Shown here: positions 6,753 to 23,951 of the stretch, one piece after another | How the letters are laid out: each line of letters begins with the position of its first letter | Position numbering within the stretch: position 1 is the first letter of the stretch | Assembly: GCA_021646405.1 (NCBI GenBank) | Contig: SOER01000039.1 | Span: 1-32,534, forward strand | Reading direction: 5' to 3' | Length of the DNA: 32,534 bases | DNA from: Candidatus Loosdrechtia aerotolerans | Lineage (GTDB): Bacteria; Planctomycetota; Brocadiia; Brocadiales; Brocadiaceae | Translations under genes and position numbers: made by a program | Notes under the pieces: model-generated | Told to the model about the DNA's origin: nothing | Database searches by the model: none | What the model saw: the letters and a program-made list of their open reading frames with translations, nothing else

Positions 6753-7044
6753 AGCTCCGCTAGGAGCGGTAGTTAAGAGAACGAGAATCTACACCAAATC
6801 CCCCTCCCTCTTGATGGGCTTATCCTTGCCCATATCTTTTTGTTCTTCCCATAAGAGTAAAATATCCAGAGCAAAAATGAAGCATAAAGCTCCGGAGGAG
6901 CGGCATGTTAATAGAATGAGAATTTACCTCCGTGATAAGCTCCTGAGGAGCGACATATGAATCCCGTGCCTTCTATGCCGCTCCTCTGGAGCTTAACATC
7001 AATGGAGATTTTTGTTCTCTTAGTATACCGCTCCTAACGGAGCT
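6753..7044. repeat. MITE-like element, copy B, with ~30-bp terminal inverted repeats
   Basis: The left end (6753-6782) begins AGCTCCGCTAGGAGCGGTAG and the right end (7014-7044) is its inverted counterpart (reverse complement begins AGCTCCGTTAGGAGCGGTAT); both run on to TAAGAGAAC. Inside are further GCTCC/GGAGC palindromes, including AAGCTCCGGAGGAGCGGCAT, also at 1820. It has no open frame of note, so it looks non-autonomous. It lies between the flavoprotein and the TPR lipoprotein. Confidence 0.75.
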
Positions 7045-8580: not shown

Positions 8581-9265
8581 CGCAGACTTTGTCGTGAGCA
8601 CAGTCGAACGACCTACGCAGATTTTATAGAAAACATGTGAACCACGAAGGACATGAAGAAAGGCATAATTTATAGAATTTAATAATTTGTCTAATCTGGT
8701 AACTTGTTTAACGATTGAAATTCATAATTAAGAAAGTGTTAAAAAACAGAATCAAAAGATTTGTTGTATAATTTTTTCTTCGTGCCCTTCGTGGTTAAAA
8801 TCTTTTTGGTGTGGCTTCGCCACGCTATAGTATCCAAGGGATGAAACCGAACAGAATATACTAAAAACCAAATTCAATATGATAAACGGTATATATGGGA
8901 TTCATGTAATTTTATGTCACCCTTTCAGGGTTAACTCTCTTGTTTTTTCATTATCCCAAGGTAAAAATTTACCCTGGGCTATCAGAGAAAAGCCCTTTGG
9001 GCTTTAAAAAGATTTGGTTTTCTATGGGAATGTTATAATACTCCACGGATGAAACCGAACATATTTGCAAACATCAGATTGTAATTTAAAAACTTACTCT
9101 CTTTTATAACTTATTTACAAACTTTCATAACTCCCTTACAGAAGTGTCCTTCTATGCAATTTTATTTTCTGTTCGGTTTCATATGATTAGTACTATATGT
9201 GTATCCATGGTTAATATGTAAGAATCTGCGTAGATCGTTCGACTGTGCTCACGACAAAGTCTGCG
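8581..9265. repeat. Long inverted-repeat element (43-bp arms) downstream of the TPR gene
   Basis: The left arm (8581-8623) and right arm (9223-9265) are reverse complements at 42 of 43 positions; the left arm begins CGCAGACTTTGTCGTGAGCA. The core words GTCGTGAGCACAGTCGAACG and ACGCAGATT also occur in dispersed form near 27735 and at 22441-22708. The 685-base span fills most of the gap between the TPR gene and ilvC and contains the smaller element at 8841-9182. It has no credible gene. Confidence 0.75.
8841..9182. repeat. Nested 342-bp element with 16-bp perfect terminal inverted repeats
   Basis: ATGAAACCGAACAGAA (8841-8856) and its exact complement (9167-9182) bound the element; a further ATGAAACCGAACA lies inside at 9049-9061. 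It includes an AACCCTGAAAGGGTGACAT-type palindrome (8914-8933) and AAAGCCC-TTT-GGGCTTT (8989-9005). A second, rearranged copy lies at 27891-28272. Confidence 0.65.
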
Positions 9266-15199: not shown

Positions 15200-18100
15200 T
15201 CAGTTTACATCAACGGCCATCTTGAGGTCCCTGTTGGTAGCATCATAGTAACTGATATATCCATCACCGGATGTGCTAACGGCTAAAGAGTTATACTGGC
15301 CTACGAATCCTGCACTATCAACCGTTTTTATCGTCCATGCTCCGGACGTATAGATTGCACATTTGAGGTCCTCATTGGTAACATCAAGGTAGCTGATATA
15401 TATCTTACCAGATGAACCAAGAGCTATGGAGGTATACGAACCCACATTTTCTGTACTATCAATTGTCTCTGCCACCCATGATCCGGATGCATTGGTTGCA
15501 TACTTGAGGTCTGTATTGGAAACATCATAGTAGCTGATATAGGCATTACCTGATGAATCAAGGGCTATGGAGGTATACCACCCTACATTTCCTGTACTAT
15601 CAATTGTTTCTGTCACCCACGATCCGGATGCATTGGTTGCATACCTGAGATCCCTACTCGTACTATCATAGTAGCTGATATAGGCATTGTTTGATGAATC
15701 AAGGGCTATGGAGGTATATTCACCCACATCCCCTGTACTGTCAATTGTTTCTGTCACCCATGATCCGGATGCGTTGGTTGCATACCTGAGGTCCCTATTC
15801 GTACTATCATAGTAGCTGATATAGGCATTGTTTGATGAATCAAGGGCCAGAGAGGTATACAACCCTATATTTCCTGTACTCTCTACCGTTTCTATCACCC
15901 ATGATCCGGATGCGTTGGTTGCATACCTGAGGTCGTCATTGGAAACATCATAGTAACTGATATAGGCATTGTTCGATGAATCAAGGGCCAGAGAGGTGTA
16001 CAATCCTACAGCCCCCGCACTATCGATTGTTTCTATCACCCATGATCCGGATGCATTGGTTGCATACCTGAGGTCTCCCTTCGTACTATTATAGTAGCTG
16101 ATATACGTATTGTTTGATGAATCAAGGGCCAGAGAGGTATACAACCCTACATTTCCTGACTTATCTACCAGTTCCGTCAGCCATGATCCATATGCATTGG
16201 TTGCATACCTGAGGCCTGCGTTAGCAGCATCATAATAGCTGATATGGGCATTATTTGATGAATCAAGGGCTATGGAGGTATATTCACCCACATTCCCTGT
16301 ACTATCAATTGTTTCTGTCACCCATGATCCGGATGCGTTGGCTGCATACTTGAGATCCTTATTGGTAGTATCATAGTAGCTGATATAGACATTGTTCGAT
16401 GAATCGAGGGCTATAGAGGTATATTTACCTACACTTCCTGTACTATCAATTGTTTCTGTCACCCATGATCCGGATGCGTTGGCTGCATACTTGAGATCCC
16501 TATTGGAAACATCATAGTAGCTGATATAGGCATTATTTGATGAATCAATGGCTATAGAGGTATATTTACCTACACTTTCTGTACTATCCACCGTTTCTGT
16601 CACCCATGATCCGGATGCGTTGGTTGCATACTTGAGGTCTGTATTGGAAATATCATAGTAGCTGATATAGACATTGTTCGATGAATCGAGGGTTATAGAG
16701 GTATAGTTACCTACACTTCCTGTACTATCAATTGTCTCTGTCACCCATGATCCGGATGCATTGGTTGCATACTTGAGATCCCTGTTGGAAACATCATAGT
16801 AGCTGATATAGGCATTACCTGATGAATCAAGGGCTATAGAGGTATGTTTACCAACATCTCCCGTGCTCTCAACGGTCTCTATTGCCCACGATCCGGATAC
16901 GTTGGTTGCATACTTGAGGTCCCCGTTGGTACTGTCATAGTAGCTAATAAAGAAATTATCTGATGCATCAGCAACAAGAGATGCATAATCGACATTATAC
17001 GACGCCGAATCTACTATTTCATATCCCCAACTGCTGCCATCAAAATATGCATGGTAAAGATAATCTCCGCCATAAACAATATGGGGGTTATTACTGGAAT
17101 CAAGAGCGATTGCCTTTGAATAAAGAAGGTTGTCAAAGAATTTTGGACCATCTACTACTTCGGTTGACATCGTAATGGCTTCGGTAGTAAAATCCCAGGT
17201 ATAGGCCTTTGTCATTGTATTTCCACTCAGGTCTTCCACACCTACTATTGTAGCGGTATAGGTAGTTGAAGGTTTTAAATATCCTGATGGTATAAAGTGT
17301 ACGGTAAAGGTTTCGCTGTTGTACTCTACGGTCCCCGTTACCCCACCGGTCTCATCTCTCAGAGTAAACGTGGATGTGTTTACCGTCGGCTCATGTACAT
17401 CTTCACTAAACGTTGCAGTAATAACAGCATCCATAGCTACTCCCGTCTCGCCGTCGGATAAATCAGTAGAAACAACGGAAGGTGGATTGATATCAATTGT
17501 TGTAAATGTTCTCTCAGCGCCCTTGTCAGTACCTCCGCTATTCTCTGCTACAACACGATAATAATATGTTGTTTCCGGTGTCAGCTTATTAATCTTCTTC
17601 CTTACAAATACAAAATCCCCGCCACTGCCGATTTCCACAGAGGAAGATGTATCCGTATATTCACCGCTGGCCGTCCCATATTCAAACCATACCGTAGTGG
17701 GTGATCTCCTCGGATGTACTTTAGCCGTCAGTATTGCTGTTTTCGCCAACACATCTTTTGCCGCTAGTGTTTTTGCAGTTGGTGGTGGCGCGTTCGTCGT
17801 AAATGTTCTCTCAACGCCCTCGCCGGTACCTGCGCTATTCTGTGCTACAATACGATAAAAATACGTTGTGGCCGGTTTCAGCTTGTTAACCTTTTTCCTT
17901 ACCAGTTCAAAATCCCCGCTACTGCCGATATCCACAGGGGGGGTCTGATTCGCATATTCACCACTGGCCGTTCCGTATTCAAACCATGCCGTAGTGGGTA
18001 ATTCCCCCGGGTTTACCTTGCCCCTCAGCATTGCTGCTTTGTTCAACACGTCTTTTGCCAACAGTGTTCTGGCGATAGGAGCACTCTCGGCTGATGCCTC

Positions 18101-18211
18101 TCTTATAGTAAAGGCAAATACCACAGATAGCAAAAACAGCTGTGGTATTAAGAAACGAATTACCCACCACCTCCTATTAAACAGGGCATTAAAAAAAGAC
18201 CTACTTCCCAT
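15200..18211 (-). CDS. Large exported repeat protein: two FN3-like domains, Big_5-like domain and 14 propeller-type repeats
   Basis: From the ATG at 18211 (AAGGAGGG 6 bases upstream; the frame stays open to 18388 but that extension lacks both a site and sense) the protein has 1003 residues. Its signal segment has two Arg-rich stretches before WWVIRFLIPQLFLLSVVFAF and ends near ASAES. Two fibronectin-III-like domains follow (each with FEYGTASGEY, TTYFYRIVAQNSAGT or close). Then comes a bacterial Ig-like Big_5 domain (STDLSDGETGVAMDAVITAT...DLSGNTMT). The C-terminal ~640 residues are 47-residue units of the pattern YTSIALDSSNNAYISYYD..N.DLKYATNASGSWVTETIDSTGNVG: one diverged unit, twelve full ones and a partial last one. 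Unit length and count suit beta-propeller blades. It is likely a secreted or surface adhesion/matrix protein; the ligand is unknown. It is convergent with trpF and divergent from the selA leader region. Confidence 0.8.
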   Translation of the reverse strand: MGSRSFFNALFNRRWWVIRFLIPQLFLLSVVFAFTIREASAESAPIARTLLAKDVLNKAAMLRGKVNPGELPTTAWFEYGTASGEYANQTPPVDIGSSGDFELVRKKVNKLKPATTYFYRIVAQNSAGTGEGVERTFTTNAPPPTAKTLAAKDVLAKTAILTAKVHPRRSPTTVWFEYGTASGEYTDTSSSVEIGSGGDFVFVRKKINKLTPETTYYYRVVAENSGGTDKGAERTFTTIDINPPSVVSTDLSDGETGVAMDAVITATFSEDVHEPTVNTSTFTLRDETGGVTGTVEYNSETFTVHFIPSGYLKPSTTYTATIVGVEDLSGNTMTKAYTWDFTTEAITMSTEVVDGPKFFDNLLYSKAIALDSSNNPHIVYGGDYLYHAYFDGSSWGYEIVDSASYNVDYASLVADASDNFFISYYDSTNGDLKYATNVSGSWAIETVESTGDVGKHTSIALDSSGNAYISYYDVSNRDLKYATNASGSWVTETIDSTGSVGNYTSITLDSSNNVYISYYDISNTDLKYATNASGSWVTETVDSTESVGKYTSIAIDSSNNAYISYYDVSNRDLKYAANASGSWVTETIDSTGSVGKYTSIALDSSNNVYISYYDTTNKDLKYAANASGSWVTETIDSTGNVGEYTSIALDSSNNAHISYYDAANAGLRYATNAYGSWLTELVDKSGNVGLYTSLALDSSNNTYISYYNSTKGDLRYATNASGSWVIETIDSAGAVGLYTSLALDSSNNAYISYYDVSNDDLRYATNASGSWVIETVESTGNIGLYTSLALDSSNNAYISYYDSTNRDLRYATNASGSWVTETIDSTGDVGEYTSIALDSSNNAYISYYDSTSRDLRYATNASGSWVTETIDSTGNVGWYTSIALDSSGNAYISYYDVSNTDLKYATNASGSWVAETIDSTENVGSYTSIALGSSGKIYISYLDVTNEDLKCAIYTSGAWTIKTVDSAGFVGQYNSLAVSTSGDGYISYYDATNRDLKMAVDVN
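15203..16987 (-). repeat. Tandem array of 141-bp coding repeats
   Basis: Twelve full 141-base units (15296-16987) and a final partial unit of 93 bases (15203-15295) follow each other without spacer in the exported protein gene. Inner units are nearly identical over stretches such as ACCCATGATCCGGATGCGTT, while the outer units have drifted. That gradient points to duplication and gene-conversion-like homogenisation in the middle of the array. Confidence 0.9.
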
Positions 18212-18494
18212 ACATTTCCCTCCTTTCTTAGGATAACAAAAATACCCCGTACAAATTGTACAAGTTACAGAAATAAAACAAGTTGTATCCAATTCTGACC
18301 TATTCTCCATCCTTTCTTTTATTAACATTCTTAACCCTGAACCCCGAACACATGTAGTTATAAAATTTTTCTTGCTTACCGAATGCATTAACCAAAAAAA
18401 ATGCCGTTGGAGGAAGAAAACTAATTTTGCGTTAAATGAATTGTAAAATTAATTATTGGGACCAGTTAAAAAATCCCGGATCATTTTCAGGATG

Positions 18495-18563
18495 TGTAAC
18501 AGATACAAACAAAAAGTGTAACGGTTACAGGTGTGTGCCAGGACACGCTGTGTGCCACGACAC
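18495..18563. promoter_or_regulatory. Cluster of four dyads between divergent genes
   Basis: Two sites of one type, TGTAACAGATACA (18495-18507) and TGTAACGGTTACA (18517-18529, perfect 6-1-6), start 22 bases apart. Two of another type, GTGTGCCAGGACAC (18533-18546) and GTGTGCCACGACAC (18550-18563), start 17 bases apart. Spacings near two helical turns and sequence repetition suggest an operator array for one or two regulators. It lies 284 bases upstream of the exported protein start and 205 bases upstream of the selA leader ORF. Confidence 0.5.
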
Positions 18564-18767
18564 ACGCCAGGCAATATCCAGATACAAACCCCACAAACAT
18601 CTTAAATATATATTATTACAGACCTTACAATATACAGAAGACACTGAAACAGAACAATATTTTGAGAGGTTGTCTTGAAATCAATCAGGCAGTGTCAAAG
18701 ATCCATGAAAAAGACGGGCGGAGAAATGTAACCCAAAATGATTAGAGGAAAACAGAGGGGGGTAACG

Positions 18768-18881
18768 ATGCACTTGAATATCTTAAAATTACTGTTAAAA
18801 TCAAGGGTAGTCAAAAATATTAAAGCGGATAAAAATATGTATTCTACAAAATCTGTAATTGCAGAATCCCTGGTATCATGA
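18768..18881 (+). CDS. Small leader ORF (37 aa) translationally coupled to selA
   Basis: A frame from ATG 18768 ends at TGA 18879-18881, overlapping the selA start codon as ATGA. A strong G-rich ribosome-binding site (GAGGGGGG) lies about 5 bases upstream, whereas selA itself has no obvious site, so ribosomes finishing this frame may start selA. The peptide begins MHLNILKLLLKSRVVKNIKA, a possible basic amphipathic helix, and continues KNMYSTKSVIAESLVS. I recognise no family. It may be a short gene or a purely regulatory leader. Confidence 0.5.
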   Translation: MHLNILKLLLKSRVVKNIKADKNMYSTKSVIAESLVS

Positions 18882-20407
18882 ACCAACAAGCGTTCAGGAC
18901 AATTCCATCTGTTCATAAGCTCCTCGAGTCACCGGAAATATCCCAATTAATGACTATGTATCCAAGGCAAGTGGTTGTTAATATACTACGGGAGGTCCTG
19001 GAGAATATCCGGCAATCATTGGTCTGTAAAACTGATACACTGCACCGGCATGATAACAGCCGGGGAACATCTCTTAATCCCCCCTTTACGAAAGGGGGAA
19101 TGAACGAAGAAGAACGGGGAAATTCGGGCAAGGAAAAAGAAGAAAAGGGAGAAGGCAGTGATCAATTAAAGGCCATTGATCTAACACCCGGGAGGATATC
19201 CTGCTTGGTTCAACAAGTCCTCCGGCAAAAATTCAATGGTATCGGATACGCTGTCAATGCAACGGGTATCATACTCCATACCGGACTCGGAAGGTCGCCT
19301 CTTGCAGATACGGCGGCAGAACAGATAGCGGATATCGTAAAAGGCTACTGTACCCTTGAGATTGAGAGACTTACCGGCAGGAGAGGGTCGAGATACCAGG
19401 GTATCGAGAAATTAGTCTGTATGATCACCGGGGCAGAATCGGCATTGGTTGTGAATAATAATGCTGCTGCTGTCCTCCTGGCTTTAGATACTATCGCAAG
19501 AGGGAAGGAAGTCATCATCTCCCGATCAGAACTTGTTGAGATCGGTGGATCGTTTCGCATGCCCGATGTTATGTCCAGAAGCGGGGCCTGTTTGGTTGAG
19601 GTTGGTACAACCAATAAGACATACCTCAGTGATTACAGCAATGCCATTACAGAACATACGGGGCTTATTCTCAAGGTACACCAGAGTAATTTTAAAATTA
19701 TTGGTTTTACAAAATCCGTAGATTTAAAAGATCTCGCTTCTCTGGGCAAAACCCATACTATTCCGGTAGTATATGACCTCGGCAGTGGTGCGTTTGTTGA
19801 TCTTCATAAATTCGGACTGCCATATGAACCGACCGTGCAGGAGGCGATAAAGGCAGGGACAGATATCGTAACATTTAGTACTGATAAATTATTAGGCGGC
19901 CCACAGGGCGGTATTATTGCCGGTAAAAAGAAATGGATTGATCTTCTGAAAAAGAACCCCCTCACCCGTGCACTTCGTGTAGGAAAACTAACGGTCGCAG
20001 CATTGGAGGCGACATTGAGGTTATATCTTGAGGAAGATCGTGCGTTAAAAGAAATTCCCACTCTCAAGATGATGGTAACACCACCTGAAATTGTTGAAGC
20101 AAGATGTAAAAGATTAACAGATAGTATACGTCAGGAAACAAAGGCATTTCTGAATATTTCTCTTTTGGACGGAGCTTCAGAAATGGGTGGAGGATCACTA
20201 CCGGGAGAGGTAATCCCAACCAAACGTATCTCTCTTCATTCAGAAACACTCCATGCTGAAGAATTGGCTGCACGGTTAAGAAGCAATACCCCCCCTATTT
20301 TCACGAGGATAGAACGGAATTGCGTTATCATGGATATGCGTACGGTATCTGATACAGAGATAGACATAATTGCCACGGCGTTAGAAAAGGTCTCTTCTCA
20401 GGAATGA
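18878..20407 (+). CDS. selA: L-seryl-tRNA(Sec) selenium transferase (selenocysteine synthase)
   Basis: PLP enzyme that converts seryl-tRNA(Sec) to selenocysteyl-tRNA(Sec) with selenophosphate. The family N-terminal domain (IPSVHKLLESPE) and the aminotransferase-fold core are complete: NATGIILHTGLGRSPL, ESALVVNNNAAAVLLAL, and PLP-binding K337 in FSTDKLLGGPQGG. At 509 residues it is about 45 longer than the usual ~460. The excess lies at about residues 52-97, a polar insert including SLNPPFTKGG and KEKEEKGEGSD. Residues 67-74 come from a C/G palindrome (19080-19098), so the insert looks derived from a genomic repeat. The start overlaps the 37-aa leader ORF by four bases. selB follows after 42 bases. 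No selC or selD was seen in the window. Confidence 0.94.
   Translation: MNQQAFRTIPSVHKLLESPEISQLMTMYPRQVVVNILREVLENIRQSLVCKTDTLHRHDNSRGTSLNPPFTKGGMNEEERGNSGKEKEEKGEGSDQLKAIDLTPGRISCLVQQVLRQKFNGIGYAVNATGIILHTGLGRSPLADTAAEQIADIVKGYCTLEIERLTGRRGSRYQGIEKLVCMITGAESALVVNNNAAAVLLALDTIARGKEVIISRSELVEIGGSFRMPDVMSRSGACLVEVGTTNKTYLSDYSNAITEHTGLILKVHQSNFKIIGFTKSVDLKDLASLGKTHTIPVVYDLGSGAFVDLHKFGLPYEPTVQEAIKAGTDIVTFSTDKLLGGPQGGIIAGKKKWIDLLKKNPLTRALRVGKLTVAALEATLRLYLEEDRALKEIPTLKMMVTPPEIVEARCKRLTDSIRQETKAFLNISLLDGASEMGGGSLPGEVIPTKRISLHSETLHAEELAARLRSNTPPIFTRIERNCVIMDMRTVSDTEIDIIATALEKVSSQE
19080..19098. repeat. C/G palindrome inside the selA coding sequence
   Basis: CCCCCTTT-ACG-AAAGGGGG is a perfect 8-bp stem-loop that encodes, in frame, part of SLNPPFTKGG in SelA. 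It belongs to the CCCTTT..AAAGGG repeats found between genes at 167-235 and 3132-3196. The insert keeps the reading frame. Confidence 0.75.
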
Positions 20408-20449
20408 TGAAGAGGGTTTTGTTGCTCGTTTCGTTATGAGAGGATATAA

Positions 20450-22384
20450 TTGTATTGTATGGAACAGACCAGTAGTACCGCTCAGAAAGAACATATAATC
20501 ATCGGAACGGCAGGACATATCGATCACGGGAAAACATCCCTCGTCAGGGCCTTAACCGGTATTGATACCGACAGGTTGCCAGAAGAAAAACAGCGTGGAC
20601 TCACCATAGATATTGGGTTTGCTTATCTGGATCTTAATTCAAACCGCAGAATCAGTATTGTAGATGTACCCGGACATGAACGTTTTGTGAAAAACATGCT
20701 GGCAGGTGCAACAAGCATTCATCTCGTACTGTTTGTTGTCGCTGCCGATGATGGTGTCATGCCGCAAACAACAGAACACCTCGAGATTATCAACCTTCTG
20801 GGGATTGAACATGGAATTGTTGTGGTGACCAAAAAGGATCTCGTTACCGATGAATGGCTGGCAATGGTGCAGGAAGATGTCAAAAGGATCTTAACCGGTA
20901 CCACACTGGAGCATGCCCCTGTTATACCCGTCTCCACCGTGACAGGTAAAGGAATCGAGATGTGCAGGACTGCATTAAAAAAACTCATTACCCGGGTAAA
21001 AGGCCAGAGAAGCAACCGTATATTCCGGTTATCAATCGACCGGTCATTTACTGTTTCAGGTCATGGATGTGTTATTACCGGGCCTGTCCTTGGCGGTCAG
21101 GTTTCAGTAGACACGGAAGTTGAAGTATTGCCCATGAAAAAAATTGTACGGGTAAGGGGTATTGAGGTAACGGGAAAACGTGTTCATACTGCCTTTGCAG
21201 GCCAACGGGCAGCACTGAATCTCAGTGGTATTAAGACGAAAGAGATACAACGCGGGTATGAACTTTCCGTTCCTGGATATTTAGAACCTACAAACCTCAT
21301 TGATACAACAATAAAACTGATCAAAAACGTAAAAAATCCTCTGAAAAACAGAACACGGATACGGTTTCATATTAATACATCGGAAGTCATGGGACGTGTT
21401 ATTTTCCTGGATAGAGATACTCTAAAGCCCGGTGAAGAATCGTTTGCACAAATAATCCTGGAAGATTTTATTACAGGAGAAAGGAATGACCGGTTTATTA
21501 TCCGGTCATATTCACCACCATACACTATCGGGGGAGGCAAGGTCTTGCGGCCTAACACAACCCGGTTGAAACGTTTCCGGAATGAAACGGTAAAAACCCT
21601 CAAAATTTTAGCAAGCGGCAATCTTCTTGATATTGTAGAGCACGTGTATTCGAATAACGGTTGCCATGTTTTCACAATTCACGATATTTCTCAACGGGTA
21701 AATATCCCTCCATCGGCAGCTGAGAATGTTATAACAAAATTGATACAAAAGGGATTTTTGTTAAAATTTGAAATAGAGGGAAAAAGCATTATTTTTCACC
21801 GTACCGTTATCTCCTCTCTCAAGGAACACATCCTGAATATCCTCGCGATATATCACAAAGAAAATCCTTTAAAAGCGGGAATAGAGGAGACATATCTCAA
21901 ATCACTCTTACGCAAAGATATACATCCACTGTCTGTTGCTGCATCTCTTTCTTCTTTAAAAAACGAGAAGGCCATCAAGGTGCACGATAACAGGGTATCG
22001 CTCACAAACTTTAAGATCGAAGTATCGGCGCAGGACAAGAGCAGGGCAAATAAGATCGAAGAGGCTTTTATCAATGCGGGATTTACCCCCCCTTCATCAG
22101 AAGAAATATATCAGAGATTTGGTCCGCCCAGTAAATCCATTATTCCTCTGCTCCTGGAACAGAAGAAACTTATCCGGATAGAAAATGACCTCTATTTTCA
22201 CGTGGCAACATTGAACAGATTAAAAGAAATTGTTAAAGAGTATATTCAAACACATGGTTCAGTTACCGTAGCACAATTCAGGGATTTAACGAAAACATCA
22301 CGTAAATTCGCTGTTCCTTTAATGGAATATTTTGATGCCGTACATTTTACCAAACGAACCGGTGACGTGCGGATATTATTATAA
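20450..22384 (+). CDS. selB: Selenocysteine-specific translation elongation factor
   Basis: GTPase that delivers Sec-tRNA(Sec) to UGA codons followed by a SECIS hairpin. The 644-residue protein has the G motifs GHIDHGKT (residues 22-29), RGLTIDIGFA (49-58), DVPGHERF (72-79) and TKKD (127-130). EF-Tu-like beta domains follow, then the C-terminal winged-helix domains that bind the mRNA hairpin (from about residue 380). Two starts are possible: TTG at 20450, with GAGAGG 6 bases upstream, and ATG at 20459, 15 bases after that site. Spacing favours TTG, but the three extra residues make no functional difference. It lies 42 bases after selA, so the two form an operon. Confidence 0.94.
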   Translation: MYCMEQTSSTAQKEHIIIGTAGHIDHGKTSLVRALTGIDTDRLPEEKQRGLTIDIGFAYLDLNSNRRISIVDVPGHERFVKNMLAGATSIHLVLFVVAADDGVMPQTTEHLEIINLLGIEHGIVVVTKKDLVTDEWLAMVQEDVKRILTGTTLEHAPVIPVSTVTGKGIEMCRTALKKLITRVKGQRSNRIFRLSIDRSFTVSGHGCVITGPVLGGQVSVDTEVEVLPMKKIVRVRGIEVTGKRVHTAFAGQRAALNLSGIKTKEIQRGYELSVPGYLEPTNLIDTTIKLIKNVKNPLKNRTRIRFHINTSEVMGRVIFLDRDTLKPGEESFAQIILEDFITGERNDRFIIRSYSPPYTIGGGKVLRPNTTRLKRFRNETVKTLKILASGNLLDIVEHVYSNNGCHVFTIHDISQRVNIPPSAAENVITKLIQKGFLLKFEIEGKSIIFHRTVISSLKEHILNILAIYHKENPLKAGIEETYLKSLLRKDIHPLSVAASLSSLKNEKAIKVHDNRVSLTNFKIEVSAQDKSRANKIEEAFINAGFTPPSSEEIYQRFGPPSKSIIPLLLEQKKLIRIENDLYFHVATLNRLKEIVKEYIQTHGSVTVAQFRDLTKTSRKFAVPLMEYFDAVHFTKRTGDVRILL

Positions 22385-22440: not shown

Positions 22441-22708
22441 CAAGAATGGGACGCTGATAAACGCAGATGGACGCAGATTTAAAGGCAAAGTAATCACAGA
22501 TGAACAGGGTTCAAAGCGTTCATCAAAGATTATGAAGAGAACAGGGCGATCAGTCTTGCCCATCCCCCTGAGTCTTTAACCGGGAACCCAGAACCCTGAA
22601 CCTGGGGAGTTACAAATTTTTTATCCGTGTCCATCCGTGGTTAACATGGTTTTTGGAGAAGATTTATGAAATCTGCGTAAATCTGCGTTTATCTGCGTCC
22701 TATTCTTG
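22441..22708. repeat. Inverted-repeat element with 40-bp arms (ACGCAGAT family)
   Basis: The left arm (22441-22480, beginning CAAGAATGGGACGCTGATAA) and the reverse complement of the right arm (22669-22708) agree at 36 of 40 positions. Each arm holds two or three ACGCAGAT words. The 188-base centre includes CCGTGGTTAACATGG, also a hallmark of this family. It accounts for most of the 334-base gap between selB and the convergent amidohydrolase gene; no gene is visible there. Confidence 0.7.
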
Positions 22709-22718
22709 GTTTTCGGAA

Positions 22719-23951
22719 TTAGGATATGGTATAACAAATCCTACCGGCGACCATGGTAAATATATTTTTCGAATCTCTGTCAAAAAGCTGACAGTATATA
22801 TCTCCGGTATGATTTTCCGGTAATCTGATACTGCAAAGGTCCGCCTCAAAGCCTTCCCTGATCTGCCCCACCCGTGACTCCAGTCCAAGGGCTTTTGCTC
22901 CCTGTACCGTAGCCATAGAGAGCAGCGTTTTTGGCAAAATGGCATAGTGCTGAAACAAAAATTTCATTTCATCCAGGATACTTAAGGTATCGTTGCTGGC
23001 CAGGCTGTCAGTGCCTAATCCAACAGTAACTCCGGCGTTCAAAAGCTTCCGGACAGGATGATGTATATGACGAAAGAAATGATGACTCTTTGGACAGAAG
23101 GCAACCCGTGCACCAGAAGATTGAATAAGAGAAATCTCCTCATCAGTTATGTAATTACAATGGATGAGGATAGGCTTAGTAGCCAGAATACCTGTCTCGT
23201 TCATATACTGAACAGGGGTGAGTCCCGGAGGATGCCAGGTATCACTTAATGCACGTAACTGGCGTAACATGGGCGGGAAACTTCCCGTACCCTTAACAAG
23301 GAACTCGGCTTCATCCTGTGTCTCTGCAACATGAGTACAGACGGGCATAGTGTTCTCATAAGCAAACTGAGCTACCGATTGATACAATTCCTTTGAAACG
23401 GAATATGGTGCGTGGGGAGACAGCCCTACCGTTAATAAGTCATCCCTTAAAATCCCGGATAACTCCAGACAAGCTTTTTTCATAACGTCTTTTGCATGAT
23501 CCGGATTTAAACCAATAACTTCTTTGTAAATAACCTTACGGAGCGGGCTTTTTTTTAATATAGAAAAAGAATGTTTTGTATTTGCGATATCTGCAACCGT
23601 TGTTATGCCTGACTGAATACAAAGCCTGATGCCTTTTTCCAGGGAAGAGACATAATCGTCATCCTTCCATCGTACCCTTGCCCCCACAATTTGAAAGACC
23701 CAGTGAGTAAAGTTCCCGGTAGGCTTAATACGATTGTGTAAATTTGTTAAATCAAGATGGGTATGGATATTTATAAGACCGGGTAAGATCGCAGCGTTGC
23801 CTAAATCAATAACATTATCACAGTAAATACGCTTTTTTATTTCATGAAATGTACCAACATGCCGTATTTTTGTGCCATCTACAGCCACGGCCCCGTTTTC
23901 AATACAACCTTCTGCATCCGGAATAAGATATTTGGCTTTGATAATTATCAT
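22719..23951 (-). CDS. Amidohydrolase-superfamily deaminase, aminofutalosine-deaminase-like
   Basis: The 410-residue metal-dependent hydrolase belongs to the TRZ/ATZ/S-adenosylhomocysteine-deaminase branch. Metal ligands and catalytic residues are evident in order: HTHLD (residues 63-67), SPHAPYSVS, CTHVAETQDEAE, HCNYITDEE and LGTDSLASND. The segments LPGLINIHTHLDLTNLHNR, GNFTHWVFQIV and DSLASNDTLSILDEMKFL resemble the aminofutalosine deaminases of the futalosine route to menaquinone (remembered Helicobacter-type enzymes), which would suit an anammox bacterium. A related adenosine or guanine-type deaminase is not excluded. The ribosome-binding site before the ATG is weak. It converges on selB across a repeat element and diverges from ahbD. 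No other mqn gene is in view. Confidence 0.75.
   Translation of the reverse strand: MIIIKAKYLIPDAEGCIENGAVAVDGTKIRHVGTFHEIKKRIYCDNVIDLGNAAILPGLINIHTHLDLTNLHNRIKPTGNFTHWVFQIVGARVRWKDDDYVSSLEKGIRLCIQSGITTVADIANTKHSFSILKKSPLRKVIYKEVIGLNPDHAKDVMKKACLELSGILRDDLLTVGLSPHAPYSVSKELYQSVAQFAYENTMPVCTHVAETQDEAEFLVKGTGSFPPMLRQLRALSDTWHPPGLTPVQYMNETGILATKPILIHCNYITDEEISLIQSSGARVAFCPKSHHFFRHIHHPVRKLLNAGVTVGLGTDSLASNDTLSILDEMKFLFQHYAILPKTLLSMATVQGAKALGLESRVGQIREGFEADLCSIRLPENHTGDIYCQLFDRDSKNIFTMVAGRICYTIS

Follow-up and report, generated by a model that had tools for sequence, protein, structure and literature searches.

We asked why the selA gene in a 32,534-nt stretch of the Candidatus Loosdrechtia aerotolerans genome (the window) encodes an unusually long protein, and what the extra sequence in its N-terminal part represents. 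The gene, the two domains of its product and the neighboring open reading frame (ORF) are located as follows:

18878..20404, + strand: selA, L-seryl-tRNA(Sec) selenium transferase, 509 aa, open frame without a stop
18893..19012, + strand: Se-cys_synth_N domain, residues 6-45 (Pfam)
19253..20347, + strand: PLP-dependent catalytic core, in which K337 matches K285 of Aquifex SelA
20450..22384, + strand: neighboring ORF, putatively selB-like

The product scored far above the cut-off of the NCBI equivalog model TIGR00474, and both its complete catalytic core (PF03841; residues 126-490, E 6.5e-149) and its N-terminal domain, which presumably has a role in tRNA binding, exceeded the curated cut-offs. 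The downstream ORF is putatively selB-like, as judged from its sequence. The window SelA exceeds the Aquifex SelA chain (452 aa) by 57 aa and the SelA of a genome of the same genus (G001, 472 aa) by 37 aa, so the excess of about 45 residues given in the preliminary description is roughly right.

The excess lies in the linker that joins the N-terminal domain to the catalytic core, where the following elements were delimited:

19033..19164, + strand: insert, approximate extent, an imperfect palindrome of ~130 nt in the SelA linker, delimited from its fold and its absence from G001
19033..19043, + strand: left terminal arm TGATACACTGC, pairing with 19155-19164 in the fold
19155..19164, + strand: right terminal arm GCAGTGATCA, which pairs with the left arm except for a single bulged A
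19080..19098, no strand assigned: perfect palindrome core CCCCCTTT-ACG-AAAGGGGG, with 8-bp arms
19076..19099, + strand: codons for NPPFTKGG, residues 67-74

The preliminary description had proposed that a genomic palindrome sits in frame in selA and is read as NPPFTKGG, and this was borne out: CCCCCTTTACGAAAGGGGG occurs exactly at 19080-19098 on the forward strand, in frame, as its sole copy in the window, where shuffled sequences gave 0.17 expected matches at up to three mismatches. The 141 nt from 19030 to 19170 folded better than all of 200 shuffles (z -4.60), while the 45-nt core by itself was less unusual (z -1.76). Since TGATACACTGC pairs with GCAGTGATCA, the insert as a whole forms one long, imperfect palindrome centered near the perfect core. 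The terminal arm is not repeated in the window, with one match to TGATNCACTGC within one mismatch compared to 1.89 expected. In a DNA alignment, the SelA linker of G001 was short and lacked the insert, and the extra sequence of the window was flanked by DNA that the two genomes share. An in-frame insertion of about 110-130 nt with a perfect GC-rich palindrome as its core would thus account for the SelA excess. We consider it likely that this insertion is a coding palindrome of the kind known as Rickettsia palindromic elements (RPEs), tolerated in a disordered linker.

The predicted structure is consistent with such a landing place. Residues 53-98 had the lowest confidence in an AlphaFold2 model (pLDDT 27-40) and formed mostly coil between helices at 30-56 and 104-119, in a model that is moderate overall (mean pLDDT 67) and has further low regions elsewhere; its best PDB match was Aquifex SelA (3w1h). 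Since the landing place appears to be a disordered segment separating the N-terminal domain from the catalytic core, SelA should still assemble and work. The suggestion that the N-terminal linker tolerates changes in length agrees with these low-confidence residues, with the insert-free linker of G001 and with linker lengths that vary widely among the SelAs of the family. Most likely, the insert forms a disordered loop that does the enzyme no harm.

The same palindrome recurs elsewhere in the window's own genome (G000; 3.26 Mb, 61 contigs). At up to two mismatches, 11 sites were found compared to one for the reversed control; four are intergenic, four are insert-like and in frame in genes, and three lie in ordinary coding sequence, where they are probably there by chance. 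The insert-like sites are in selA, lnt, mfd and an ABC permease gene (hosts assigned by Pfam). The palindrome is therefore not a repeat otherwise confined to the spaces between genes, as had been described, and more copies lie within genes in relatives. The corresponding sites are empty in relatives: selA in G001, both the Lnt and Mfd homologues in G005, and Lnt also in G023. The Lnt and Mfd inserts of G000 share their insertion sites with those of G022, whose lnt insert also holds a second palindrome-like stretch, CTTCGTCGTGAGCGCTCAGTCGAACGATGAAG, beside the C/G palindrome; the window has a similar motif at 8581-8623. In G001, a palindrome lies ~100 nt upstream of selA (L169:1606-1622), and the linker itself has none.

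Across the 33 genomes of the Brocadia family, CCCCCYTNNNARGGGGG had 145 forward matches, some of which overlap at one place, in 23 genomes, compared to one match for the reversed control. Of 61 sites hand-picked from the family matches with SelA sites excluded (62 rows, L205 repeating an L204 site), 33 fell in ORFs of at least 250 aa, whereas random positions in the same stretches did so in 61% of cases, so genes are not clearly avoided. This choice took 5 of 13 sites from G021 (none with a CGC/GCG loop), 1 of 5 from G028, 2 of 3 from G005 and none from G004, G006, G009, G014, G018, G025 and G027. All three phases occur among the sites within ORFs, and the in-gene palindromes are read as Pro/Gly-rich peptides such as PP..KGG and PP.EGGD. 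By Pfam, the hosts in relatives include a KBL-type aminotransferase ("KBL" being our reading of a class I/II aminotransferase match), RACo, TruD, UvrD and the V-ATPase C subunit, as well as radical SAM, Wzy, YfhO, PMT, Cas6 and other proteins. The selA insert would then be one of a wide range of small palindromic repeats, intergenic and intragenic, in the Brocadia family. These repeats probably behave like RPEs: they are short and non-autonomous, contain no stops in the frames used and persist at flexible protein linkers.

In Brocadia and another genus, the repeat extends over ~115 nt (TAGCGCAGCA...AATACTATA), with TA at each end (TAGCGCAG...AATACTATA). A profile built solely from nine intergenic copies detected the linker of SelA in G011 (43.4 bits, E 1.6e-11) and in G023 (31.9 bits, E 6e-8), and a covariance model of the element found copies in 32 of the 33 family genomes, with up to 107 in G029. 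The one family genome in which this model (R1) had no match at E 0.01 was G000 itself. We therefore rejected the selA insert as a full 115-nt element: G000 holds no full copy, and its insert matches the element in the palindrome core only (11.7-14.8 bits). Since the match is confined to the core and the genome has no covariance-model copy, the G000 selA copy appears to be either an old relic or a member of another subfamily.

We compared the SelA linkers of the family, in which SelA is present in 25 of 33 genomes. The eight genomes with no SelA match (G006, G008, G010, G015, G019, G026, G028 and G031) include all three of genus g10, which could mean that the family has lost the Sec pathway in places or that some of these genomes are incomplete. 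Twenty-four linkers were read and 22 tested, the SelA frames of G012 and G002 being dropped because they lack the N-terminal IPSV motif; in G012 this missing conserved N-terminus points to a possible frameshift or truncation. Perfect C/G palindromes with arms of at least 8 were present in 5 of the 22 linkers (G000, G013, G022, G011 and G023), about five more (G020, G032, G016, G009 and G018) had C/G blocks at the same place that were judged by eye to be eroded, and the remaining 12 had no such palindrome. Named counterparts of these SelAs, identical to them over the last 300 residues compared, include those of Candidatus Brocadia sapporoensis, B. sp. AMX1 and B. sp. MAG_8, which carry the insert, intact or eroded, and those of B. 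pituitae, B. carolinensis and B. sp. WS118, which do not. Rather than being conserved across distant SelAs like an old family feature, the insert varies in presence, length and sequence, even within genera g1, g9 and g11. Palindromes in the SelA linker may thus have been gained, lost or decayed recurrently.

This distribution could also go back to a single insertion in the SelA linker of a Brocadia-family ancestor that many lineages have since lost or let erode; such a history is compatible with an RPE-like element, and we regard it as plausible, if somewhat short of probable. Five Brocadia SelAs share a common position and flanks, with many pairs of left flanks alike, and the palindromes of G000, G016, G032 and G011 all lie 20-21 codons after an IRQ/VRQ motif. 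The identical sites of the Lnt and Mfd inserts in G000 and G022 point in the same direction. However, the left flank of G000 was not significantly like any other, forming none of the pairs with P up to 25/500. Its palindrome is perfect even though fourfold sites of its SelA match those of the other four perfect-palindrome species at only 0.33-0.39; for all five species, the fourfold identity of SelA is 0.33-0.53 across genera and 0.69 inside Brocadia. When mapped on a SelA core tree, presence and absence required at least six changes among 26 SelAs, although losses could supply these.

In the sister family f2, an unrelated palindrome, GGGGCAATTCATGAATTGCCCC, lies in frame in the SelA linkers of G033, G037 and G045, three of the eight f2 linkers read. 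The SelA linkers of G037, G045 and G039 were retrieved on their own, and the linkers of G042 and G051 were included as well. In G037 it is contained in GTAGGGGCAATTCATGAATTGCCCCTAC, which is read as GAIHELPLP and begins with GTAG, as noted by eye. The SelA linker of G040 lacks GGGGCAATTCATGAATTGCCCC although this genome belongs to the same genus as G037 and G045. At up to two mismatches, GGGGCAATTCATGAATTGCCCC is repeated in G033 (seven sites compared to none for the control) and likewise in G040. Given the C/G type in the Brocadia family and the GGGGCAATTCATGAATTGCCCC repeat in f2, the SelA linker has acquired at least two unrelated palindromes.

The age of the in-gene palindromes could be gauged from homologous genes of two genera in which the palindrome occupies the same column of the alignment (displaced by one column at most in UvrD). 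In KBL, the 23-nt core was identical between genera while fourfold sites matched at 0.44, and the corresponding window of 24/24 beat all 367 flank windows. The RACo core matched at 20-21 of 23 positions with a fourfold identity of 0.38-0.41; its window of 22/24 was equaled by 7-10 of 395-427 flank windows, placing it in the top few per cent. The UvrD core matched at 17-20 of 23 positions with a fourfold identity of 0.46-0.52, and its window of 20/24 was unremarkable, with 252 of 577 flank windows as good. Judging from these alignments, perfect palindromes appear to persist or to be renewed. Active upkeep of palindromes in genes is possible, with cross-genus evidence that is mixed (strong for KBL, weaker for RACo and unexceptional for UvrD). 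More tentatively, and with doubt on our part, coding palindromes might be kept palindromic at fixed places in genes, whether one arm corrects the other, other copies convert them or they insert repeatedly at one and the same codon. Old ones would then stay near-perfect while surrounding synonymous sites saturate, and the SelA linker would serve as a natural site at which palindromes of at least two unrelated families have docked repeatedly.

Upkeep could in principle have another cause, namely that the hairpin functions in the selA mRNA, through translation pausing, RNA stability or a SECIS-like signal, and is kept for that reason. The strong fold of the insert (z -4.6) and of the five linkers with perfect arms (z -2.3 to -4.4) would fit such a role, but the palindrome-free linker of G021 folds as well (z -3.9), 12 of the 22 family linkers do without such a palindrome, and similar repeats lie in many unrelated genes. 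Pair counts on five Brocadia SelA inserts gave no clear covariation, so we rejected RNA-level selection on these inserts for want of a clear signal from five sequences. A SECIS element or other known RNA in selA was likewise discarded, with no Rfam family reaching the cut-off in 18400-20600. A functional hairpin is therefore unlikely.

It was also conceivable that the insert inactivates SelA or marks a decaying gene, in that a repeat interrupts an enzyme that is conserved, and SelA has no match in 8 of the 33 family genomes. The frame is open, however, and K337, the match of Aquifex SelA K285, which we take to be the PLP lysine, is invariant in an alignment of 25 SelAs. The genome encodes a tRNA-Sec with anticodon TCA, and its SelD frame (contig C37 of G000, 22448-23374) holds one TGA near the start (ATCAG-TGA-AGKIP), where we would expect the catalytic Cys/Sec. 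SelD is thus probably a selenoprotein, which makes most sense if Sec is made. Moreover, the SelA cores of G000 and G001 are identical at 0.78 of positions while fourfold sites match at 0.39, indicating strong purifying selection. The suggestion of an inactive SelA is contradicted by the lysine, the tRNA-Sec and the in-frame TGA of selD, from which SelA should be active; inactivation is very improbable. Least probable of all is a chance palindrome in a low-complexity linker, since the purine-rich 3' part of the linker and a codon-resampling null that kept the peptide and equaled the palindrome arm in 26 of 400 draws are outweighed by the exact 19-mer, the 11 sites in the genome compared to one for the control, and the similar palindromes of other species in the same linker.

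We thus favor an RPE-like coding palindrome in a disordered linker, and we infer that the palindrome is mobile, that its peptide is translated and that enzyme activity is unaffected. Rickettsia is the best-known case of in-frame palindromes within protein genes, and Wolbachia reportedly has coding palindromes as well. RPEs are described as short palindromic repeats of ~100-150 bp, both intergenic and in frame in conserved genes, where they are tolerated (PMC2229807, PMC10969869). On that description, RPEs are the closest kind to the Brocadia-family repeats, being alike in forming short palindromes between genes and in frame within conserved genes. They differ in phylum and sequence, the Brocadia-family core being a C5/G5 palindrome, and the likeness is one of kind, not of membership in the described RPE families. 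With time, RPEs reportedly lose their repeat identity (PMC6649704), whereas the KBL and RACo copies of the Brocadia family are nearly identical between genera. The same source describes perfect inverted repeats in protein genes of Nematomorpha mitochondria, with dynamic gain and loss, and a proposal that template switching keeps their arms alike (PMC6649704); these too are inverted repeats in protein genes, but they belong to mitochondria of unrelated worms and have far longer arms (up to 142 bp).

Intragenic REPs, palindromes of 20-40 bp tagged by GTAG or CGTC at one end, come close as well: they are described as lying in ORFs, often of repair genes such as that for the UvrD/REP helicase, with different REPs at about the same recB site in two Xanthomonas species (PMC3733652). 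Only the f2 palindrome of G033, G037 and G045 shares the tag, GTAGGGGCAATTCATGAATTGCCCCTAC beginning with GTAG like REPs, whereas the window palindrome has neither GTAG nor CGTC at either end and is part of a longer insert. Compared to bacterial MITEs (ERIC, Correia, RUP), the 115-nt repeat of relatives is TA-ended and numerous (up to 107 model matches per genome), but no long terminal inverted repeats were seen and no target-site duplication was established. The terminal arms of the selA insert are short (10-11 nt) and imperfect, and for this insert, too, no target-site duplication was established.

Literature searches among open-licence papers found no report of coding palindromes in Brocadiaceae, and the parts of the Kuenenia genome paper that match repeat terms name no such element (PMC5854607). 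A planctomycete family that includes Candidatus Brocadia carries in-frame palindromes in ordinary enzymes. Because several species and presence/absence pairs are at hand, it becomes testable whether such repeats are tolerated or kept and by what route separate lineages come to have them in the same linker. Where proteins from these genomes show odd Pro/Gly-rich insertions, caution is needed, as such insertions can derive from repeats.

The window holds other repeats as well. A 1062-aa ORF at 15200-18388 contains 12 repeat copies with a spacing of 141 nt (47 aa) that are 60-77% alike to the reference, and two dispersed copies of a ~170-nt repeat, 87% alike, lie outside the listed genes at 1752-1928 and 6819-6996.
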